Shown here piece by piece: positions 22,376 to 29,719 of a DNA stretch of 64,000 bases. The translations under genes were made by a program, and so were the position numbers. A model generated the notes under the pieces. That model saw nothing but the letters and a program-made list of their open reading frames with translations, did not search any database and had not been told where the DNA came from. Origin of the DNA: Halopseudomonas xinjiangensis (GTDB lineage: Bacteria; Pseudomonadota; Gammaproteobacteria; Pseudomonadales; Pseudomonadaceae); NCBI GenBank assembly GCA_011050525.1, contig DRFO01000017.1, positions 1 to 64,000 of the forward strand, read 5' to 3'. Position 1 is the stretch's first letter. Each line of letters opens with the position of its first letter.

Positions 22376-22888
22376 TCATTGCCGTAGTTGATATTGCTGC
22401 CGGTACAGGTGGGCAAAACCGTGGATCAATGGAAATACCACCGCCCAGATTGCTGCGAGTATCAGCAACGTGGTCTCCCGACCCATGGGCATACTGAGAT
22501 CCGCCAGCCATGCTTGCGCCAGGTAAACGAGTGCTCCGGTTCCGGCTCCGGTGGCGCTCGCCAGCCACCAGCGGCGACCGCTCCAGGCCAGCGAATGATT
22601 GATGGTGGTGCCCAGCAATGCCCAGAACAGCAGCAACCACAGCGGAACCAGGGTGGGCTCGCCAGGAAAGCCCAGCACGTTTATCTGGATAAGAAAGGAA
22701 TCCAGCGTTGCGCCTGCCAACATGACACTTGCCACCAGCTTGCCTTCTGCCGTCCAGGAGCTGACCCACTGGAAGTGGATCAGCAGCGCGGCAACTGGAA
22801 TCACCAGCCACCAGCTAGTGCCCCCCAGCAGGCAAGCGAGCCAGCCGATTGAAAACAATAGGGCGTTGATTATCAGCATTCCTGGCAT
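22376..22888 (-). CDS. DUF2878 membrane protein of the photolyase cluster
   Basis: A 170-residue inner-membrane protein with five or six hydrophobic segments and the DUF2878 pattern NALLFSIGWLACLLGGTSWW, then LDSFLIQINVLGF and TTINHSLAW. I start at the ATG at 22888 (MPGMLIINALLFS); a longer reading to 23101 overlaps phrB. Function unknown. DUF2878 genes are, from memory, frequent partners of photolyase, cyclopropane-fatty-acid synthase and flavin oxidoreductase genes in light-induced clusters. Here the gene lies 118 nt downstream of phrB in the same direction. Confidence 0.75.
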   Translation of the reverse strand: MPGMLIINALLFSIGWLACLLGGTSWWLVIPVAALLIHFQWVSSWTAEGKLVASVMLAGATLDSFLIQINVLGFPGEPTLVPLWLLLFWALLGTTINHSLAWSGRRWWLASATGAGTGALVYLAQAWLADLSMPMGRETTLLILAAIWAVVFPLIHGFAHLYRQQYQLRQ

Positions 22889-23006
22889 GACGGTCTCACA
22901 GCGCTTGCGAAGTGAACGGTCTTGACGCTGCCGGCGGATAGCCTTCCGAAAGGTGTGCTTGGTAATAGCAAAAGAGAAAATTCCCGACATCATTAAAGAG
23001 CCGCCA

Positions 23007-24425
23007 TTATAGTCCCTTGAACGCATCAAGCGCGCGGCGGCGGCTGTCGCCGAGGTCGACAATAGCGGCAGGGTACGAGGTAGCGGAGAAGAGGTCATCA
23101 ATCGGCGGCTGGTGTATCTGTTTGTTTGATAAATGTTCCAGCTCAGGCACCCATTGGCGAATGAAAAGGCCGTCGGGGTCGAACTTGCGCGACTGCGTCA
23201 CTGGATTGAAGATGCGGAAATAGGGTGCGGAATCGGTGCCGGTGGAAGAGCTCCATTGCCAGCCACCGTTGTTGGCGGCCAGGTCACCGTCGATCAGTTG
23301 GCGCATGAACCATCGTTCGCCTTCGCGCCAGTCGATCAGCAGATTCTTGCTCAGAAACATGGCGGTCAGCATGCGTAGCCGGTTATGCATCCAGCCCGTC
23401 GCCAGCAGTTGCCGCATCGCTGCATCGATAATGGGGATGCCGGTCTGCCCCTGTTTCCAGGCTTCGAGTGCCTTCGGGTCGTTGCGCCAGGGTAACTTTT
23501 CCATGTTCTCTCGGAACGCGCGGTGACGGGAGACGTGCGGATAGCAAACGAGGATGTGCTTGTAGAACTCGCGCCATAGAAGCTCGTTTATCCAGGTAGT
23601 AGCCCCGGCGTTGCCGGCATCGAATTCGCCCCTGTTAGCGGCTATCGCGGCATGCAGGCACTGGCGGGGTGATAGCACACCGGAAACCAGATAGGGCGAA
23701 AGCCGACTGGTTCCATCCTGGTCGGGCCGGTCGCGCGAGCGCTCGTAGTCGAGCAGGATGTTTTCGCTGAAATGGGCCAGGCGGTCAGCTGCCGCCTGCT
23801 CCCCGGCAGGCCAGAGACTTTGCTGATCCGTACCGGGCACGGCGAATCCTTCGACCGCGGCCGGTACCGAGTCAGATTCCAGATTCTGAACTGTTTGTTT
23901 GGGCGGAGCAGGAACGCACTCGGGCAACCATGTATGCAGGCGCTGATAGGCCACCTTGCGGAACTGGCTGTACACCTTGAACATGGTCCCGGCTTGGGTC
24001 AGCACGGAGCCAGGCTTGAACAGAATCTGATCGGTGAACCGCTGGCAGCCCAGCCCTGCATCGCTGAAGGCTCGGTCTACGGCGTCGTCTCGCTGCTGCT
24101 CATGTATGCCGTATTCATCGTTGAACCAGATGGTCTCTACGCCTAGCTGCCTGGCAAGGGTCAGCAGAGCGGAAGGGGCTTCAGACCATTCCGCGATCGT
24201 TGCGATCCGCAAGGGAATATTGCGCTGGCTGAGGGAGTGCTTGAGCGCCCTCAGATTGCGCATCCAGAAGTCGACCTTGATCGGTGAATCGTCATGGGCT
24301 TGCCAGGTGGCTGGAGAAATCAGGCACACCGCGACGACCGGGCCGCTTTGACTGGCATTCCACAAAGCCAGGTTGTCGTGGCAGCGCAAATCATTGCGTA
24401 GCCAGTAGAGCTGCGCGTTTTTCAT
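23007..24425 (-). CDS. phrB: Deoxyribodipyrimidine photo-lyase (CPD photolyase)
   Basis: A 472-residue flavoenzyme that splits cyclobutane pyrimidine dimers with blue light. The N-terminal antenna domain (LYWLRNDLRCHDNLAL) is followed by the FAD domain, with RDRPDQDGTSRLSPYLVSGVLSPRQC, the DNA-facing WMHNRLRMLTAMFLSKNLL and the C-terminal NGGWQWSSSTGTDSAPYFRIFNP. Length is normal for class I. The ATG overlaps the MerR regulator stop by 4 nt, so photolyase and regulator are co-translated. The gene is probably light- or stress-induced through the upstream dyads. Confidence 0.95.
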   Translation of the reverse strand: MKNAQLYWLRNDLRCHDNLALWNASQSGPVVAVCLISPATWQAHDDSPIKVDFWMRNLRALKHSLSQRNIPLRIATIAEWSEAPSALLTLARQLGVETIWFNDEYGIHEQQRDDAVDRAFSDAGLGCQRFTDQILFKPGSVLTQAGTMFKVYSQFRKVAYQRLHTWLPECVPAPPKQTVQNLESDSVPAAVEGFAVPGTDQQSLWPAGEQAAADRLAHFSENILLDYERSRDRPDQDGTSRLSPYLVSGVLSPRQCLHAAIAANRGEFDAGNAGATTWINELLWREFYKHILVCYPHVSRHRAFRENMEKLPWRNDPKALEAWKQGQTGIPIIDAAMRQLLATGWMHNRLRMLTAMFLSKNLLIDWREGERWFMRQLIDGDLAANNGGWQWSSSTGTDSAPYFRIFNPVTQSRKFDPDGLFIRQWVPELEHLSNKQIHQPPIDDLFSATSYPAAIVDLGDSRRRALDAFKGL

Positions 24426-25321
24426 GCTGAGATTCTCAACCGGTCCAGCAGTATCGAGTGAGCAAGTATAGTTTGTTCACTCAGGATACCGACCCCCATG
24501 GCTTGCCACTCCTGGGCGTGAATAACCGCTGCGTGTCCGGCCACGAAGATTCTCATCGAATGATTCTGAACCAGCTTGGGCAGGTGCCGGCGCAATTGAT
24601 GTGCAGGTACTGCCTGGCTGCTGAACAGCACAAGCGCCTGCGGGTTGGTCCGGTCAGCCAGTAGCGTCAGTTCGCTGGCAGGAACTTCCCATTCCAGCGT
24701 GTCGACTCGGTAGCTGTCGGCGCTGAGCATGGCTGCCAACAGCCACATGCCCGGTTCGCAATGCTCATTGGAAAGGCTGGCTATCACCACCGGTGGGGCG
24801 TTGAGATGGCAATTATTCTGGTAGATCCGGGTGGCCATCTTGGTGCGCAACCGGGTGTGAATGAACACCTCTTCAAGGTGGCTGCCGAACTGGCCTTGCC
24901 ATCTTTGCTGAAGTTGATCAAGCACCGGCTGGAGCAGTTGACTGCATACGGTAGCGGTGGGATAAGCTGCCATGCTCTGGTTATAAAGCTGGTCGAATCG
25001 AGCCGTATCGAACGACAAAAGCGCATCCATGAATTGGGCACGTGTCGCCCTCCATGGAGAATCTTCCTCGCTAACAGGCGTGTTGCTGGGTGAGTTCAGC
25101 AAGGCTTTTACCTGCCCTACCGCCACGCCCCGATTCAGCCAGCTGAGGATATGCTGTATCTGTGCAACGTTGTCTTGCGTGTAGAGTCTGTGACCCTTGG
25201 GCGTGCGATGGGGTTTTATCAAGCCATAGCGCCGTTCCCACGCGCGCAGGGTTACGGCGTTTACCCCGGTTACCCGTGATACGTCCCGAATGGGCAGCAT
25301 GTCGGTGGTAGAAAGACTCAT
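24422..25321 (-). CDS. MerR-type regulator with degenerate B12-binding domain (LitR/CarH-like)
   Basis: A 299-residue regulator. Residues 8-75 form a MerR helix-turn-helix with the signature GVNAVTLRAWERRYGLIKPHRT. The C-terminal half resembles the helical cap and Rossmann domain of cobalamin photoreceptors such as CarH and LitR. The usual E-x-H-x-x-G reads E186-H-C188-E-P-G191, so the lower-ligand histidine position is Cys, and the W-x9-EH cap motif reads W141-x9-EV. It is therefore unlikely to bind adenosylcobalamin canonically; light input could come from another protein. The gene lies in an operon with phrB (4-nt overlap) and the DUF523 gene (9-nt gap). Confidence 0.82.
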   Translation of the reverse strand: MSLSTTDMLPIRDVSRVTGVNAVTLRAWERRYGLIKPHRTPKGHRLYTQDNVAQIQHILSWLNRGVAVGQVKALLNSPSNTPVSEEDSPWRATRAQFMDALLSFDTARFDQLYNQSMAAYPTATVCSQLLQPVLDQLQQRWQGQFGSHLEEVFIHTRLRTKMATRIYQNNCHLNAPPVVIASLSNEHCEPGMWLLAAMLSADSYRVDTLEWEVPASELTLLADRTNPQALVLFSSQAVPAHQLRRHLPKLVQNHSMRIFVAGHAAVIHAQEWQAMGVGILSEQTILAHSILLDRLRISA

Positions 25322-25330
25322 CTAATTTCC

Positions 25331-26293
25331 CTAAATGGCATTGCGCAGGCTCAATTCGGCTGGATAAGGCTGCAGGTAGACTTGCCGGAGCAGGAAGGGG
25401 TCCGGGTGATTGAGCAGGTGATGTTTGAGCAAAGTAATAGGAACAATCAGCGGGATCATGCCGCTACGGTACTGGCCTATCAGCGTGCGCAGTTCGCTCC
25501 TTTCCGCTTTGCACAGAGCCCGTTTGAAGTGTCCGGCCAGATGTTCCAGCACGTTGCCGTGGGATCCGCGGCTGGCTCGGGTCCGCAAGGCTGCCATGAG
25601 TAACGAGGCGTACCGATCCGCCAGCTCTGTCAGGTCGGCTTGCTTCAGATTGGAAAGCAGTGCGCCCATGGCCCGGTAGTGTGCAGGATGGTGGGCGAGC
25701 AGCAGATATTTATGACGGGTATGGAAATCGAGAAGACCTTTGGTGCTGATCTCCTCGCTCGCCAGGTTTTTCCAGTCGGCATAGGCAATTACACGGGTCA
25801 CGAAGTTTTCTCTTATCACCGGGTCATGAAGACGGCCTTCTTCCTCAATCGGCAGCAATGGATTGCCGGCCATCAGTTCAGCGGCAAAAACACCGGTACC
25901 TGTGCCTGCCGCCGGGTTGCCGTTTTCGAGATAGACCTTCACCCGTTCCATCCCGCAACTGGGTGATTTCTGCATGAGGATAAAGCCGCACAGGTCCTTG
26001 CGGTCCGATGAGATCTGTTGTCCATAACGCTTGAGCGGTGCGGTCACGTCAAGTTGCAGATCCTTACTGCCAAGTACCTTCGGGGCAGCGGGAGCGCCAA
26101 CCAGGCGAATAGGGTCGCGGGGCGTTCCAAGCCCGATTGCTACCTCTGGACAGAACGGGATCAGTTCAAAATGCTCAGCCAGAACGTCGGTGCACAAAGA
26201 GGAACGCTTGTGACTGCCGTTGAAGCGCACGTGAGAGCCCAGCAAGCATTGACTGATGCCTATCGGAATGGGCGGATTCGCTGGCATGGACAT
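25331..26293 (-). CDS. DUF523-DUF1722 fusion protein (YbgA/TudS-related)
   Basis: A 320-residue two-domain protein. The N-terminal 150 residues are DUF523 with conserved cysteines at about 16 (SQCLLG), 48 (FCPE) and 113 (SPSCG). By analogy with the DUF523 thiouracil desulfurase TudS these would hold a 4Fe-4S cluster. The C-terminal half is DUF1722 (YbgA), with HTRHKYLLLAHHP and ITLLKHHLL. The substrate is unknown. GAGAGGG precedes the ATG at 26293. It is the first gene of the operon with merR and phrB, immediately downstream of two dyad elements. Confidence 0.82.
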   Translation of the reverse strand: MSMPANPPIPIGISQCLLGSHVRFNGSHKRSSLCTDVLAEHFELIPFCPEVAIGLGTPRDPIRLVGAPAAPKVLGSKDLQLDVTAPLKRYGQQISSDRKDLCGFILMQKSPSCGMERVKVYLENGNPAAGTGTGVFAAELMAGNPLLPIEEEGRLHDPVIRENFVTRVIAYADWKNLASEEISTKGLLDFHTRHKYLLLAHHPAHYRAMGALLSNLKQADLTELADRYASLLMAALRTRASRGSHGNVLEHLAGHFKRALCKAERSELRTLIGQYRSGMIPLIVPITLLKHHLLNHPDPFLLRQVYLQPYPAELSLRNAI

Positions 26294-26304
26294 GACGGCC
26301 CTCT

Positions 26305-26331
26305 CTTATACAAAGATCGGATTCTGTATAG
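26305..26331. promoter_or_regulatory. 27-bp dyad operator upstream of the DUF523-merR-phrB operon
   Basis: The plus strand reads CTTATACA-N10-TCTGTATAG. The same pattern with identical spacing occurs at 27641-27667. The core TRTACA-N12-TGTATA is an inverted repeat, as expected for a dimeric MerR-type regulator. On the minus strand the right end overlaps a possible -10 TATAAG, 17 bp after TTCTAT. It ends 11 nt before the ATG, very close to the ribosome binding site. Confidence 0.6.
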
Positions 26332-26338
26332 AAATAAG

Positions 26339-26363
26339 TGTACGTGAGTTATTTGGTTGTACA
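26339..26363. promoter_or_regulatory. Second, degenerate dyad and possible promoter
   Basis: TGTACG-N13-TGTACA lies 7 bp upstream of the better dyad. On the minus strand it contains TTGTAC and TACACT separated by 16 bp, a plausible -35/-10 pair for the DUF523-merR-phrB operon. Confidence 0.4.
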
Positions 26364-26384
26364 AAGTAATCGCGTGCAGAATCT

Positions 26385-26600
26385 TTATCGCCAGCCCAGT
26401 TTCCACACCCGGCTGTCTTTCAGTAGTCGCCACGGCAGACGCTGAATGCGCCGCGTCAGTATCGCCTCTAAATCCACAGCAACAGGGTTGTTTTGCTCGT
26501 CCAGATGACAGTCGATCACCATGAAATGTACTTCCTTGTTGGTCGGGAGCACCGCTGTCCATTTTGAATGCAATAGTTTGCGAGGATTGATCCGGTTCAC
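26385..26600 (-). CDS. TIGR02450-family Trp-rich small protein
   Basis: A 71-residue protein beginning MNRINPRKLLHSKWTAV with further Trp residues at RLPWRLLKDSRVWKLGW, the pattern of the TIGR02450 Trp-rich conserved hypotheticals. The function is unknown; the family is, from memory, often next to photolyase or renalase genes. The start is a GTG directly after the renalase stop codon, so translation is coupled. No separate ribosome binding site is obvious. Confidence 0.75.
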   Translation of the reverse strand: MNRINPRKLLHSKWTAVLPTNKEVHFMVIDCHLDEQNNPVAVDLEAILTRRIQRLPWRLLKDSRVWKLGWR

Positions 26601-27578
26601 TTACTGAACCGTCTTGGCTGCTTGCTGGCCGCTCAACCACGCATTTTCAAGGCGGCCACCGAGGCACCAGTCGCCGCAAACATAGATGCCCAGTTCTGGG
26701 GCGGCGAGCGCGCCCCAGTTGCATTGGTCGGTGGGCCGGGCATAGAGCCAGCGGTGCACATGCAGGGAGGCAGGGCTGGGTAGAGTCAGGCCAAGCACTT
26801 CACTTAACGCTTGCTGAAGATGGGTGGCGATGGTTTCGTGATCGGCGTCCAGGTGGTCGGCGGCCCAGCCCGGAGTCGACTGCACCACCCAGGTATCTCT
26901 TCCGCCACGGCCAGGCTTGGTGCTGTTGCGCGAGATCCAGTCCAGTGGTCCGCTCCGCACAAAGCATGCTTCAACTGGGGTCGGCAGGGACTGCTCAAAC
27001 GCCAGGGCCAGGGTCCAGCCTGCGTCCATGGTTGCCTGCGCTGCAGCCTGGGCCAGCAGCGGCGCTTGCTTCAGCAGCGCGACCGCCTGCGGGGCTGGGA
27101 CGGCTACGACGATTCGGTCAAAGGGGCCGTGCACTGCTCCGACATCATCGGAGAGCTGCCACTGGTTATCGTCGTCACGATGCACCTGGGCAATGCGTGT
27201 CTGGCTTTGAAATCGGAGGTCACCTATCAAGTGTCGAGACAGGGCGGACATGCGTGGAGTACCGACAAACCGCTGCTGCTGGTCAGCAGATTCATGCAAA
27301 CCTTGCTGGTCAAAACGGAAAAGTCTGGGCGTCCATTCAGCTACCCAGCCTTTATCCAGCCATTGCTGGAGCAACTGGCGAAAATGGCTGTCTCTGGCGG
27401 TGAAGTACTGAGCTCCCAGGTCCAGGTCGCCGACCTCGGTGCGCTTGCTACTCATCCGACCGCCGCTTCCGCGACTTTTGTCGAAAATCGTTACCATATG
27501 ATTAGCTTCGTTTAGGGCAGTGGCAGCACTGATGCCTGCCAGGCCTGCACCTATTACGGCTATACGAAGGGAGCTCAT
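26601..27578 (-). CDS. Renalase-like FAD-dependent oxidoreductase
   Basis: A 325-residue flavoprotein with the dinucleotide motif VIGAGLAGISAATAL and the family blocks FDKSRGSGGRMSSKR, LDLGAQYFTARD and HRWLYARP, then LGIYVCGDWCLGGRLENAWLSG. These match, from memory, the bacterial renalase of Pseudomonas savastanoi pv. phaseolicola, which oxidises mis-reduced 2- or 6-dihydro-NAD(P) back to NAD(P)+. This would repair nicotinamide cofactors in the cytosol. It is coupled to the Trp-rich small protein downstream and divergent from the TIGR01777 gene, sharing the dyad at 27641-27667. Confidence 0.85.
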   Translation of the reverse strand: MSSLRIAVIGAGLAGISAATALNEANHMVTIFDKSRGSGGRMSSKRTEVGDLDLGAQYFTARDSHFRQLLQQWLDKGWVAEWTPRLFRFDQQGLHESADQQQRFVGTPRMSALSRHLIGDLRFQSQTRIAQVHRDDDNQWQLSDDVGAVHGPFDRIVVAVPAPQAVALLKQAPLLAQAAAQATMDAGWTLALAFEQSLPTPVEACFVRSGPLDWISRNSTKPGRGGRDTWVVQSTPGWAADHLDADHETIATHLQQALSEVLGLTLPSPASLHVHRWLYARPTDQCNWGALAAPELGIYVCGDWCLGGRLENAWLSGQQAAKTVQ

Positions 27579-27640
27579 GGGTTTTCTTTCCTGTCGACTT
27601 GCTGCGGGTTGTCAGCGACGGTAGCAACGCTTTACCTGAC

Positions 27641-27667
27641 TTGTACATAATATAAAGTCTGTATAGC
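27641..27667. promoter_or_regulatory. 27-bp dyad operator between the renalase and TIGR01777 genes
   Basis: CTTGTACA-N10-TCTGTATAG matches the element at 26305-26331 at 16 of 17 conserved positions with the same spacing. It lies 63 bp from the renalase start and 106 bp from the epimerase start, so it could control both divergent units. The adjacent MerR-type protein is the obvious candidate ligand. Confidence 0.6.
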
Positions 27668-27773
27668 ATCTCCGATCTGAGAACTACCTGCAAGTCGAGC
27701 GTGATCTCAGCTGTTAAGCTTTGTGCTTGGGTTCCGAGCCATAGTTCCATCTGTACGATCACAGGGAGTCGCC

Positions 27774-28673
27774 ATGCACGTGCTTATCACTGGAGGAACA
27801 GGACTGATCGGGCGCGCATTGTGCGAGCGCCTGACGGTAGAAAAACACCGCGTGAGCGTCCTCAGTCGCACGCCTGATCGGGTCCAGTCATTATGCGGTT
27901 CGTCAGTCTCTGGGGTGGCTGAGCTGCACGAGCTTGACCACACCCACGTTGACGCGGTCATCAACCTGGCCGGGGCTCCCATAGCGAACAGGCTGTGGAC
28001 GGCAAAGCGCAAGGCTGAACTTTGGGCCAGCCGAGTCAGCTTGACCGAGCAGCTAGTCGACTGGATGGGCCGGCTGGCAAGCAAGCCCTCAGTGCTCATC
28101 AGCGGTTCGGCCGTTGGATGGTATGGTGACGGGGCGGATAACATCCTTACTGAAGCCGATTCAGCCCGGCCCGGTTACACCAACACGCTGTGCGATGCCT
28201 GGGAGTCCGCCGCCAAACGCGCAGCGTCTTACGGTATACGCGTATGCCTGGTTCGTACTGGGCTGGTTGTGGCGCCTGGAGCAGGATTTCTCCAGCGGAT
28301 GATCCTGCCGTTCAAATTCGGGCTGGGCGGCCCGATCGGCCCAGGCTCGCAATATATGCCCTGGGTCCATATAGATGACGAAGTCGGGATAATCATGCAT
28401 CTATTGAATCATCCGCAGTGCAAAGGTCCTTTCAATGCCACTGCGCCGAACCCGGTCACCAACAGGGAGTTCGCCAGATCCCTGGGTAAAGCCCTGAACA
28501 GACCAGCGGTGATCCCTGTGCCCGGATTGATACTCAGGGCAGGCCTGGGTGAAATGGCCGGACTTCTGCTGACGGGGCAGCGTGCCATGCCAGCCCAGGC
28601 GCTGGCTTCAGGATACAGGTTTCATTTTGAGCATCTGGATGTTGCGCTAGAAGATGTTCTCGGCAACCACTAA
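27774..28673 (+). CDS. TIGR01777-family SDR epimerase (YfcH-like)
   Basis: A 299-residue extended short-chain dehydrogenase with NAD(P)-binding [16 protein letters not shown], the [10 protein letters not shown] segment and a catalytic region [11 protein letters not shown], ending in the DUF1731 C-terminal domain ([19 protein letters not shown]). The substrate is unknown. I start at the ATG at 27774, after GGGAG; upstream in-frame codons are not family-like. It is divergent from renalase and 23 nt upstream of hemH, so it may drive hemH transcription. Confidence 0.87.
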
Positions 28674-28696: not shown

Positions 28697-29719
28697 ATGT
28701 CGGATCGTGGGGTTTTACTGGTCAATCTGGGCTCGCCTGCCAGTACCGAGGTGGCAGATGTACGCCGCTATCTGAATCAATTTCTAATGGATCCATACGT
28801 CGTGGACCTGCCTTGGCCGTTGCGAAGGCTGCTGGTGGGGCTCATTTTGCTGCTGCGACCAAAGAAGTCAGCTGCAGCCTATGCGTCCATCTGGTGGAAG
28901 GAAGGCTCGCCGTTGGTCGCGATCAGCCGTAAAGTCCAGCAAGCCCTGCAGGCTCGGCTGGACATGCCGGTCGAGCTGGCCATGCGCTACGGGAAGCCTT
29001 CCATCAAGCGCGGCATTCTGGCGCTGGCCGCCAGGTCTGGCATCAAGGAAATCCTGTTCATTCCCCAGTATCCCCAGCATGCAGACAGCACCATTACCAC
29101 GTCCATCAAGGAAGCCGAGCGGGTGATCGCAGAACAGGGTTTGAACCTCAAGCTGACCATAGTGCCGGCATTTCACAGCAAGCCTGGTTACATGGATGCC
29201 CTGGTAGCCAGCGCTGCGCCGCACCTGGAACAGCGCTTTGATCATCTGCTGCTGAGTTACCACGGGTTGCCTGAAAGACATCTGCGCAAGGCTGATCCCA
29301 CCAATGCACACTGCCTGAATTATCCTGACTGCTGCGACCAGCCTTCCCCTGCACACGCCACCTGTTATCGCGCTCAGTGCGTCCTCGTCAGCAAGGAATT
29401 CACATCACGCATGGGCCTGCGGGACGATCAGTGGTCGATGTCGTTTCAGTCCCGTTTGGGCAGGGATAAATGGATTGAACCCTATACCGAACAGCGCGTT
29501 GACGAACTGGCCGCGCAGGGCGTCAAGCGCCTGGTGGTAATGTGTCCAGCCTTCGTGGCGGATTGTATCGAGACGCTGGAAGAAATCGGCGACCGGGCCA
29601 GGGAGCAGTTTATCGAGGCCGGGGGAGAGGAGCTGATTCTGGTGCCCTGCCTGAATGACCATCCGCAGTGGATCGATGCGCTCGAACAGTGGTGCAGGAC
29701 CGAGCCAGCGGTCGCCTGA
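28697..29719 (+). CDS. hemH: Ferrochelatase
   Basis: A 340-residue enzyme inserting Fe2+ into protoporphyrin IX, the last step of haem synthesis. [12 protein letters not shown] at the start, the catalytic histidine region [12 protein letters not shown] and the C-terminal [15 protein letters not shown] are diagnostic. The ATG at 28697 follows AGAGG; an ATG at 28673 would overlap the previous gene. Haem supply next to flavin photorepair genes is also seen in P. putida, from memory. Confidence 0.95.

Follow-up and report, generated by a model that had tools for sequence, protein, structure and literature searches.

The closest described relatives of the locus studied here are the light regulons of Pseudomonas mendocina and P. 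putida. In P. mendocina (PMC9758184, Maruyama et al. 2022), region 1 has the arrangement photolyase-pmlR1-SDR-FAD-oxidoreductase, and region 2 contains PmlR2, a short LOV protein, and folM-folE-folX. PmlR2 is a repressor that is removed by the illuminated LOV protein, and this anti-repression was shown in vitro. Light induced phrB and ufaM 25- to 33-fold in P. mendocina, and folM was also light-induced. The operator consensus given for P. putida PplR1 is matched by the PmlR2 footprint (PMC9758184). For P. putida, Sumi et al. (2020) tabulated 19 genes, according to papers that cite their work. TudS-DUF1722 proteins (RudS) strip 4-thiouridine (s4U) from tRNA and lessen the UVA growth delay in E. 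coli, and operons with PhrB, LitR, and RudS were already noted in the same 2024 paper (PMC11417400).

We analysed a stretch of 64,000 nucleotides from Halopseudomonas xinjiangensis (contig DRFO01000017.1, positions 1 to 64,000; hereafter, the window), together with the rest of the genome and related genomes. We found that a gene cluster in the window is very probably the Halopseudomonas form of a class II LitR/short-LOV blue-light regulon. A preliminary description of the window had proposed a light regulon acting through a shared dyad; this idea agrees with what has been published for the matching P. putida and P. mendocina loci (PMC9758184), and it is broadly correct but not new. The features are listed in Table 1.

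Table 1. Genes and predicted operators of the light cluster and of the litR2/short LOV region. Coordinates refer to the window, except those marked L039, a stretch of the same contig that starts at contig base 64001.
Feature	Position	Strand	Basis or remark
DUF2878 protein	22376..22990	-	PF11086, E 3.7e-31
phrB, deoxyribodipyrimidine photolyase	23007..24425	-	NCBIfam PRK10674.1, 538 bits (cut-off 506)
litR1, class II LitR/CarH-type MerR regulator	24422..25321	-	Pfam domains, CarH-like alignment
rudS (DUF523-DUF1722), tRNA 4-thiouridine desulfidase by family	25331..26293	-	PF04463 + PF08349
Operator 1, CTTATACAAAGATCGGATTCTGTATAG	26305-26331		Predicted site, 11 bases upstream of rudS start codon
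TIGR02450/DUF2389, small tryptophan-rich protein	26385..26600	-	PF09493, E 2.7e-17
Flavin amine-oxidase-type oxidoreductase	26601..27578	-	PF01593 (Amino_oxidase), E 2.8e-23
Operator 2, CTTGTACATAATATAAAGTCTGTATAG	27640-27666		Predicted site, between divergent flavoprotein and TIGR01777 genes
TIGR01777 short-chain dehydrogenase-type oxidoreductase	27774..28673	+	TIGR01777, 343 bits (cut-off 207)
hemH, ferrochelatase	28697..29719	+	TIGR00109, 248.6 bits (cut-off 124.6)
litR2	L039:13207-14169		LitR regulator beside short LOV
HD-GYP-type protein	L039:14420-15667		DUF3391 + HD domains, HD-GYP motifs
Short LOV protein	L039:15692-16174		Likely light sensor, some 54 kb downstream of litR1

Family searches confirmed six of the seven genes named in the preliminary description, with 2-thiouracil-desulfurase and DUF1722 families for the DUF523-DUF1722 gene. 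The seventh, the flavin amine-oxidase-type gene, had been called renalase-like and credited with NAD(P)H repair. This assignment found no support, because its Pfam matches are general flavoprotein families (Amino_oxidase being the best) and, in a comparison by families alone, no renalase-specific family occurred in Pfam or among the best 25 of 48 NCBIfam matches, none of which reached its cut-off. The start codon of the DUF2878 gene is uncertain, since the open frame reaches back to a TTG at 23101.

The open reading frames of phrB and litR1 overlap by 4 bases, and the TIGR02450 gene starts with GTG at 26600, directly after the flavoprotein stop codon. These junctions and the operator positions suggest two minus-strand transcripts, flavoprotein-TIGR02450 and rudS-litR1-phrB-DUF2878. 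The TIGR02450/DUF2389 protein is present in many light clusters of the genus. On the plus strand, TIGR01777 and hemH perhaps share one transcript, judging from their positions; hemH follows TIGR01777 in 18 of the 19 genus stretches with TIGR01777, and the remaining stretch ends at a contig end. Ferrochelatase consumes protoporphyrin, a photosensitiser; thus, co-induction of hemH by light would make sense.

Both copies of the 27-bp sequence that had been described in two upstream regions were found. The position given for the first was exact, and that for the second (27641-27667) was one base off. The two copies, at the promoters of the cluster, match the class II LitR operator T(G/A)TACA-N12-TGTA(C/T)A, and an additional half-site, TGTACA, lies near operator 1 at 26358. 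Dinucleotide shuffling of the window (100 rounds) gave an expectation of 0.00 for the pattern TRTACA-N12-TGTATA. In the whole genome (3,969,536 bases), T[AG]TACA-N12-TGTA[CT]A is matched exactly at three places, against none for the reversed pattern, and two of the three fall within the photolyase cluster; the motif, whose frequency the preliminary description had singled out for checking, is thus rare. When one mismatch was allowed, eight places were found, against 11 in the reversed control. As this signal is not separable from the control, only exact matches are informative. By eye, TTGTAC-N16-TACACT could be a promoter before rudS; an automatic scan of 26250-27850 returned no sigma-70-like promoter.

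We then surveyed 37 genomes of Halopseudomonas, 24 of which together contain 58 exact sites; the control pattern gave six places. Exact sites occur in 24 of the 30 genomes with a LitR and in none of the seven without (P 1.7e-4, relatedness not corrected), where "without" means no match or a match to the HTH only, and two of these seven genomes are about 92% complete. The other six LitR-bearing genomes have no exact site. According to our own classification of the neighbouring genes, the two photolyase-cluster promoters account for 33 of the 58 sites. Six belong to three genomes that have LOV, a PAS-PAS chemoreceptor, an EAL protein, and rudS side by side, two are at litR2/LOV/fol, and one precedes a photolyase-family gene pair. 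The remaining 16 comprise four before a 4HB chemoreceptor, four between GGDEF and DUF6436 genes, two before protoglobin-PAS-GGDEF-EAL genes, three (L092, L093, and L105) with neighbours of no clear role, and three (G011, G031, and G032) with the sequence TATACATGCATGCTGGCATGTATA. We disregarded this last sequence, a palindrome that probably belongs to another regulator; it is identical in the three stretches (L095, L108, and L050) and lies beside glutamine-synthetase-type genes (by Pfam in G011 and G031, and by a similar frame in G032). Stretches L098 and L103 contain pairs of protoglobin-PAS-GGDEF-EAL genes whose two members are separated by an exact LitR-type site.

Of the 45 genomes sampled from Pseudomonas sensu lato, 44 contain exact sites, against five control places. 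We hand-picked 40 stretches among the matches listed, so that the following figures are counts and not rates: 13 are photolyase clusters, four LOV/litR2 or DUF2878-type clusters, and three folE; two each concern a DPRP gene and a CHASE3 chemoreceptor, and one concerns a GGDEF-EAL gene. The other 15 are either within long frames or could not be assigned clearly.

The likely sensor of the system is encoded on the same contig, where a second region (on L039) contains folX-folE-folM, litR2, an HD-GYP-type gene, and a short LOV gene. The LOV protein, which we found by reading the open reading frames of this stretch, resembles Pseudomonas short LOVs of known structure (E 3e-66), and its Cys lies within QDCRFLQ. 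Among 20 genus stretches with LitR2, LOV stands beside it in 19, and the remaining one is cut by a contig end. A DNA pattern for GxNCRFLQ found matches in 0 of 1 and 4 of 37 genomes; it was unsuited, since Pseudomonas short LOVs read QDCRFLQ, and therefore these counts say nothing about the absence of LOV. The HD-GYP-type gene, which sits between litR2 and LOV, may encode a c-di-GMP phosphodiesterase linked to the photoreceptor. The preliminary description had recommended looking for the motif at genes such as folE2, cfa, and cryB. A folE gene does occur in the LitR2-LOV cluster, but no exact site accompanies it; the closest match in the folM-litR2 region has two mismatches. Likewise, no site with at most one mismatch was found in the fetched loci of the cfa-type genes (C43 and C31) and the DPRP (photolyase-related) gene (C20) of this genome.

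The photolyase had been regarded as the only member of the cluster with a firmly known role, which overlooks the published role of RudS (PMC11417400). The window protein is a TudS-DUF1722 fusion and has all seven residues that were reported as essential for RudS_KT, namely three cluster Cys, Glu, two Ser, and Arg. In five genus stretches (G011, G020, G027, G023, and G031), rudS was not found between the site and litR1; thus, RudS is not an obligate member.

The MerR-type protein of the cluster, proposed earlier as the regulator, is of the LitR type. LitR1 has MerR and B12-binding_2 domains above the Pfam cut-offs as well as a weak B12-binding match (26.8 bits, cut-off 32.1), and it aligns with CarH across its whole length. 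These features would suit a LitR1 that is itself the photoreceptor, binding adenosylcobalamin and leaving the DNA when light breaks the cobalt-carbon bond. We consider this extremely improbable. In CarH, the His after W-x9-E and a second His are the B12 ligands; in LitR1, the first position is Val and the second column is Cys. In 23 aligned LitR1 rows (our own, 17 from genus stretches, and five from named loci, with L129 and L130 duplicating genus genomes), none of the 23 has the first His and only one has His in the second column. Moreover, the CarH equivalog profile scores 99.6 bits, far under its cut-off of 400, and the P. putida response was reported to be independent of B12 (PMC9758184). 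The absence of the ligand histidines fits a class II LitR, and the sensing of light most probably falls to the separate short LOV protein rather than to LitR1. Because the published footprint was made with the second LitR, PmlR2 (PMC9758184), LitR1 need not be the only protein that binds the sites of the cluster. A response of the cluster to redox or general stress instead of light is also very unlikely. It would agree with the rise of P. putida PP_0738-PP_0742 when the bacterium was co-cultured with a cyanobacterium at the same illumination, which the authors attributed to a different stress situation (PMC11014904), but the strong induction of phrB and ufaM by light in P. mendocina and the anti-repression of LitR by LOV in vitro (PMC9758184) argue for light.

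The assignment to the class II LitR/short-LOV regulon is based on an operator consensus identical to the published one and on the same gene neighbourhood (PMC9758184). It is further based on the concentration of exact sites in the cluster, both in this genome and across the genus, on the co-occurrence of sites with LitR, and on the presence of LitR2, a short LOV, and folMEX in the same genome, with LOV regularly beside LitR2 in the genus. It is weakened by the six LitR genomes that have no exact site, the folM gene of this genome without an exact site, the stretches in which no rudS was found between site and litR1, and the empty promoter scan. Sites, gene content, conservation, and site-LitR co-occurrence were observed here in Halopseudomonas itself. 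The LitR2 footprint, LOV anti-repression in vitro, and light induction come from relatives (PMC9758184), as does RudS activity (PMC11417400), and we infer that they hold in this organism too, as well as which LitR binds which site and the chemoreceptor link described below.

In the regulon so assigned, LitR would sit on T[AG]TACA-N12-TGTA[CT]A in the dark and block the promoters of rudS-litR1-phrB(-DUF2878), flavoprotein-TIGR02450, and TIGR01777(-hemH). Blue light would convert the short LOV protein to its active form, which would bind LitR and take it off the DNA. The release would allow the synthesis of the photolyase for DNA, of RudS, which would remove the near-UV-sensitive s4U of tRNA, and of the flavoproteins. 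The third exact site of the genome would place a 4HB chemoreceptor gene under the same LitR/LOV control.

This third site (G000:C24:86805-86828) ends 65 bases before a gene for a 548-residue 4HB-MCP. Orthologues with at least 54% identity were found in 13 genomes, 12 of which had a readable upstream region. Seven of these 12, including our own, have the site with at most one mismatch: it is exact in four (G000, which is our own, G023, G011, and G019) and has one mismatch in three (G012, G001, and G029). By eye, a further three (G028, G030, and G015) have TGTACA-N13-TGTATA, and two (G003 and G013) have no site upstream. Pairwise identity among the ten site-bearing upstream stretches is 38-71%, and the dyad is by eye their best-kept block. 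Exact sites also precede PAS-PAS chemoreceptors in three genomes and CHASE3 chemoreceptors in two (L210 and L237, both Pseudomonas sensu lato); an EAL gene lies behind the latter receptor in L237, and the 4HB and CHASE3 proteins are 33% identical over 461 residues. A GGDEF cyclase of our genome (L246, GGEEF motif intact) has a one-mismatch site at G000:C14:91975-91998, ending 167 bases before the gene. Close relatives of this protein occur in 32 of the 37 genomes, and in the 30 upstream regions read, four sites are exact and three, including our own, have one mismatch; each of the seven begins 183-196 bases upstream of the start codon. The other 23 regions have no site with at most one mismatch. 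Six of the seven sites are nearer to where a divergent DUF6436 gene is estimated to start; our own genome shows no such gene there. The case for the cyclase is weaker than that for the chemoreceptor.

From the positions of these sites, the same switch may plausibly extend to the 4HB chemoreceptor. A broader proposal, to which we give an even chance, is that the LitR/short-LOV switch governs behaviour as well as repair in Halopseudomonas and its relatives: the operator stands before 4HB, PAS-PAS, and CHASE3 chemoreceptors, apparently recruited separately, and beside GGDEF, EAL, and protoglobin-GGDEF-EAL genes, and an HD-GYP gene is beside LOV. That the chemoreceptor and cyclase sites are chance occurrences or promoter hexamers, and that the regulon consists of repair genes only, is a serious alternative, to which we give somewhat less than an even chance. 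The half-sites TTGTACA and TGTATAAT look like -35 and -10 hexamers, the targets were chosen after the sites had been seen, and the orthologues with N13 spacing or no site, the many cyclase regions without one, and the nearness of DUF6436 all agree with it. However, seven exact or one-mismatch sites are kept before the chemoreceptor in upstream stretches of rather low identity, the dyad of G012 and G001 is by eye placed elsewhere relative to the likely -10, and exact sites precede two other types of chemoreceptor.

If the switch does govern behaviour, blue light would reset taxis and the motile-sessile choice by altering the set of receptors that the cell makes, and not by way of a receptor that senses light itself. 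A real link to the chemoreceptor would mean that a repair regulon also reaches movement, a testable route by which non-phototrophs could leave or settle in sunlit places. The link is possibly new: among the matches listed for literature searches on LitR with chemotaxis or c-di-GMP, short LOV regulons, and PplR1/PmlR2, a scope outside of which the P. putida gene list of 2020 falls, no report of it was found.

The published photo-repair regulon was thus recovered from raw sequence, with operator and regulator co-occurring across a genus. The locus shares the MerR HTH and the overall domain layout of its regulator with CarH and class I LitR and differs from them in that the ligand histidines are not conserved. 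With the RudS tRNA 4-thiouridine desulfidases (PMC11417400) it shares the TudS-DUF1722 fusion and the seven essential residues, whereas Tyr25 is Phe in the window protein, and Ser243 and Arg244 are not at the same offset. Compared with the P. mendocina PmlR1/PmlR2-PmSB-LOV system (PMC9758184), ufaM is not in the cluster, folM has no exact site, and a chemoreceptor site is present, for which a term search of that paper turned up no counterpart. The operator consensus and both gene regions of P. mendocina are also found here, and P. putida PplR1-3 (Sumi et al. 2020, via citing papers) has the same consensus, with phrB, LitR1, and RudS in one cluster. The cluster is a well-supported Halopseudomonas example of a system that has already been described.
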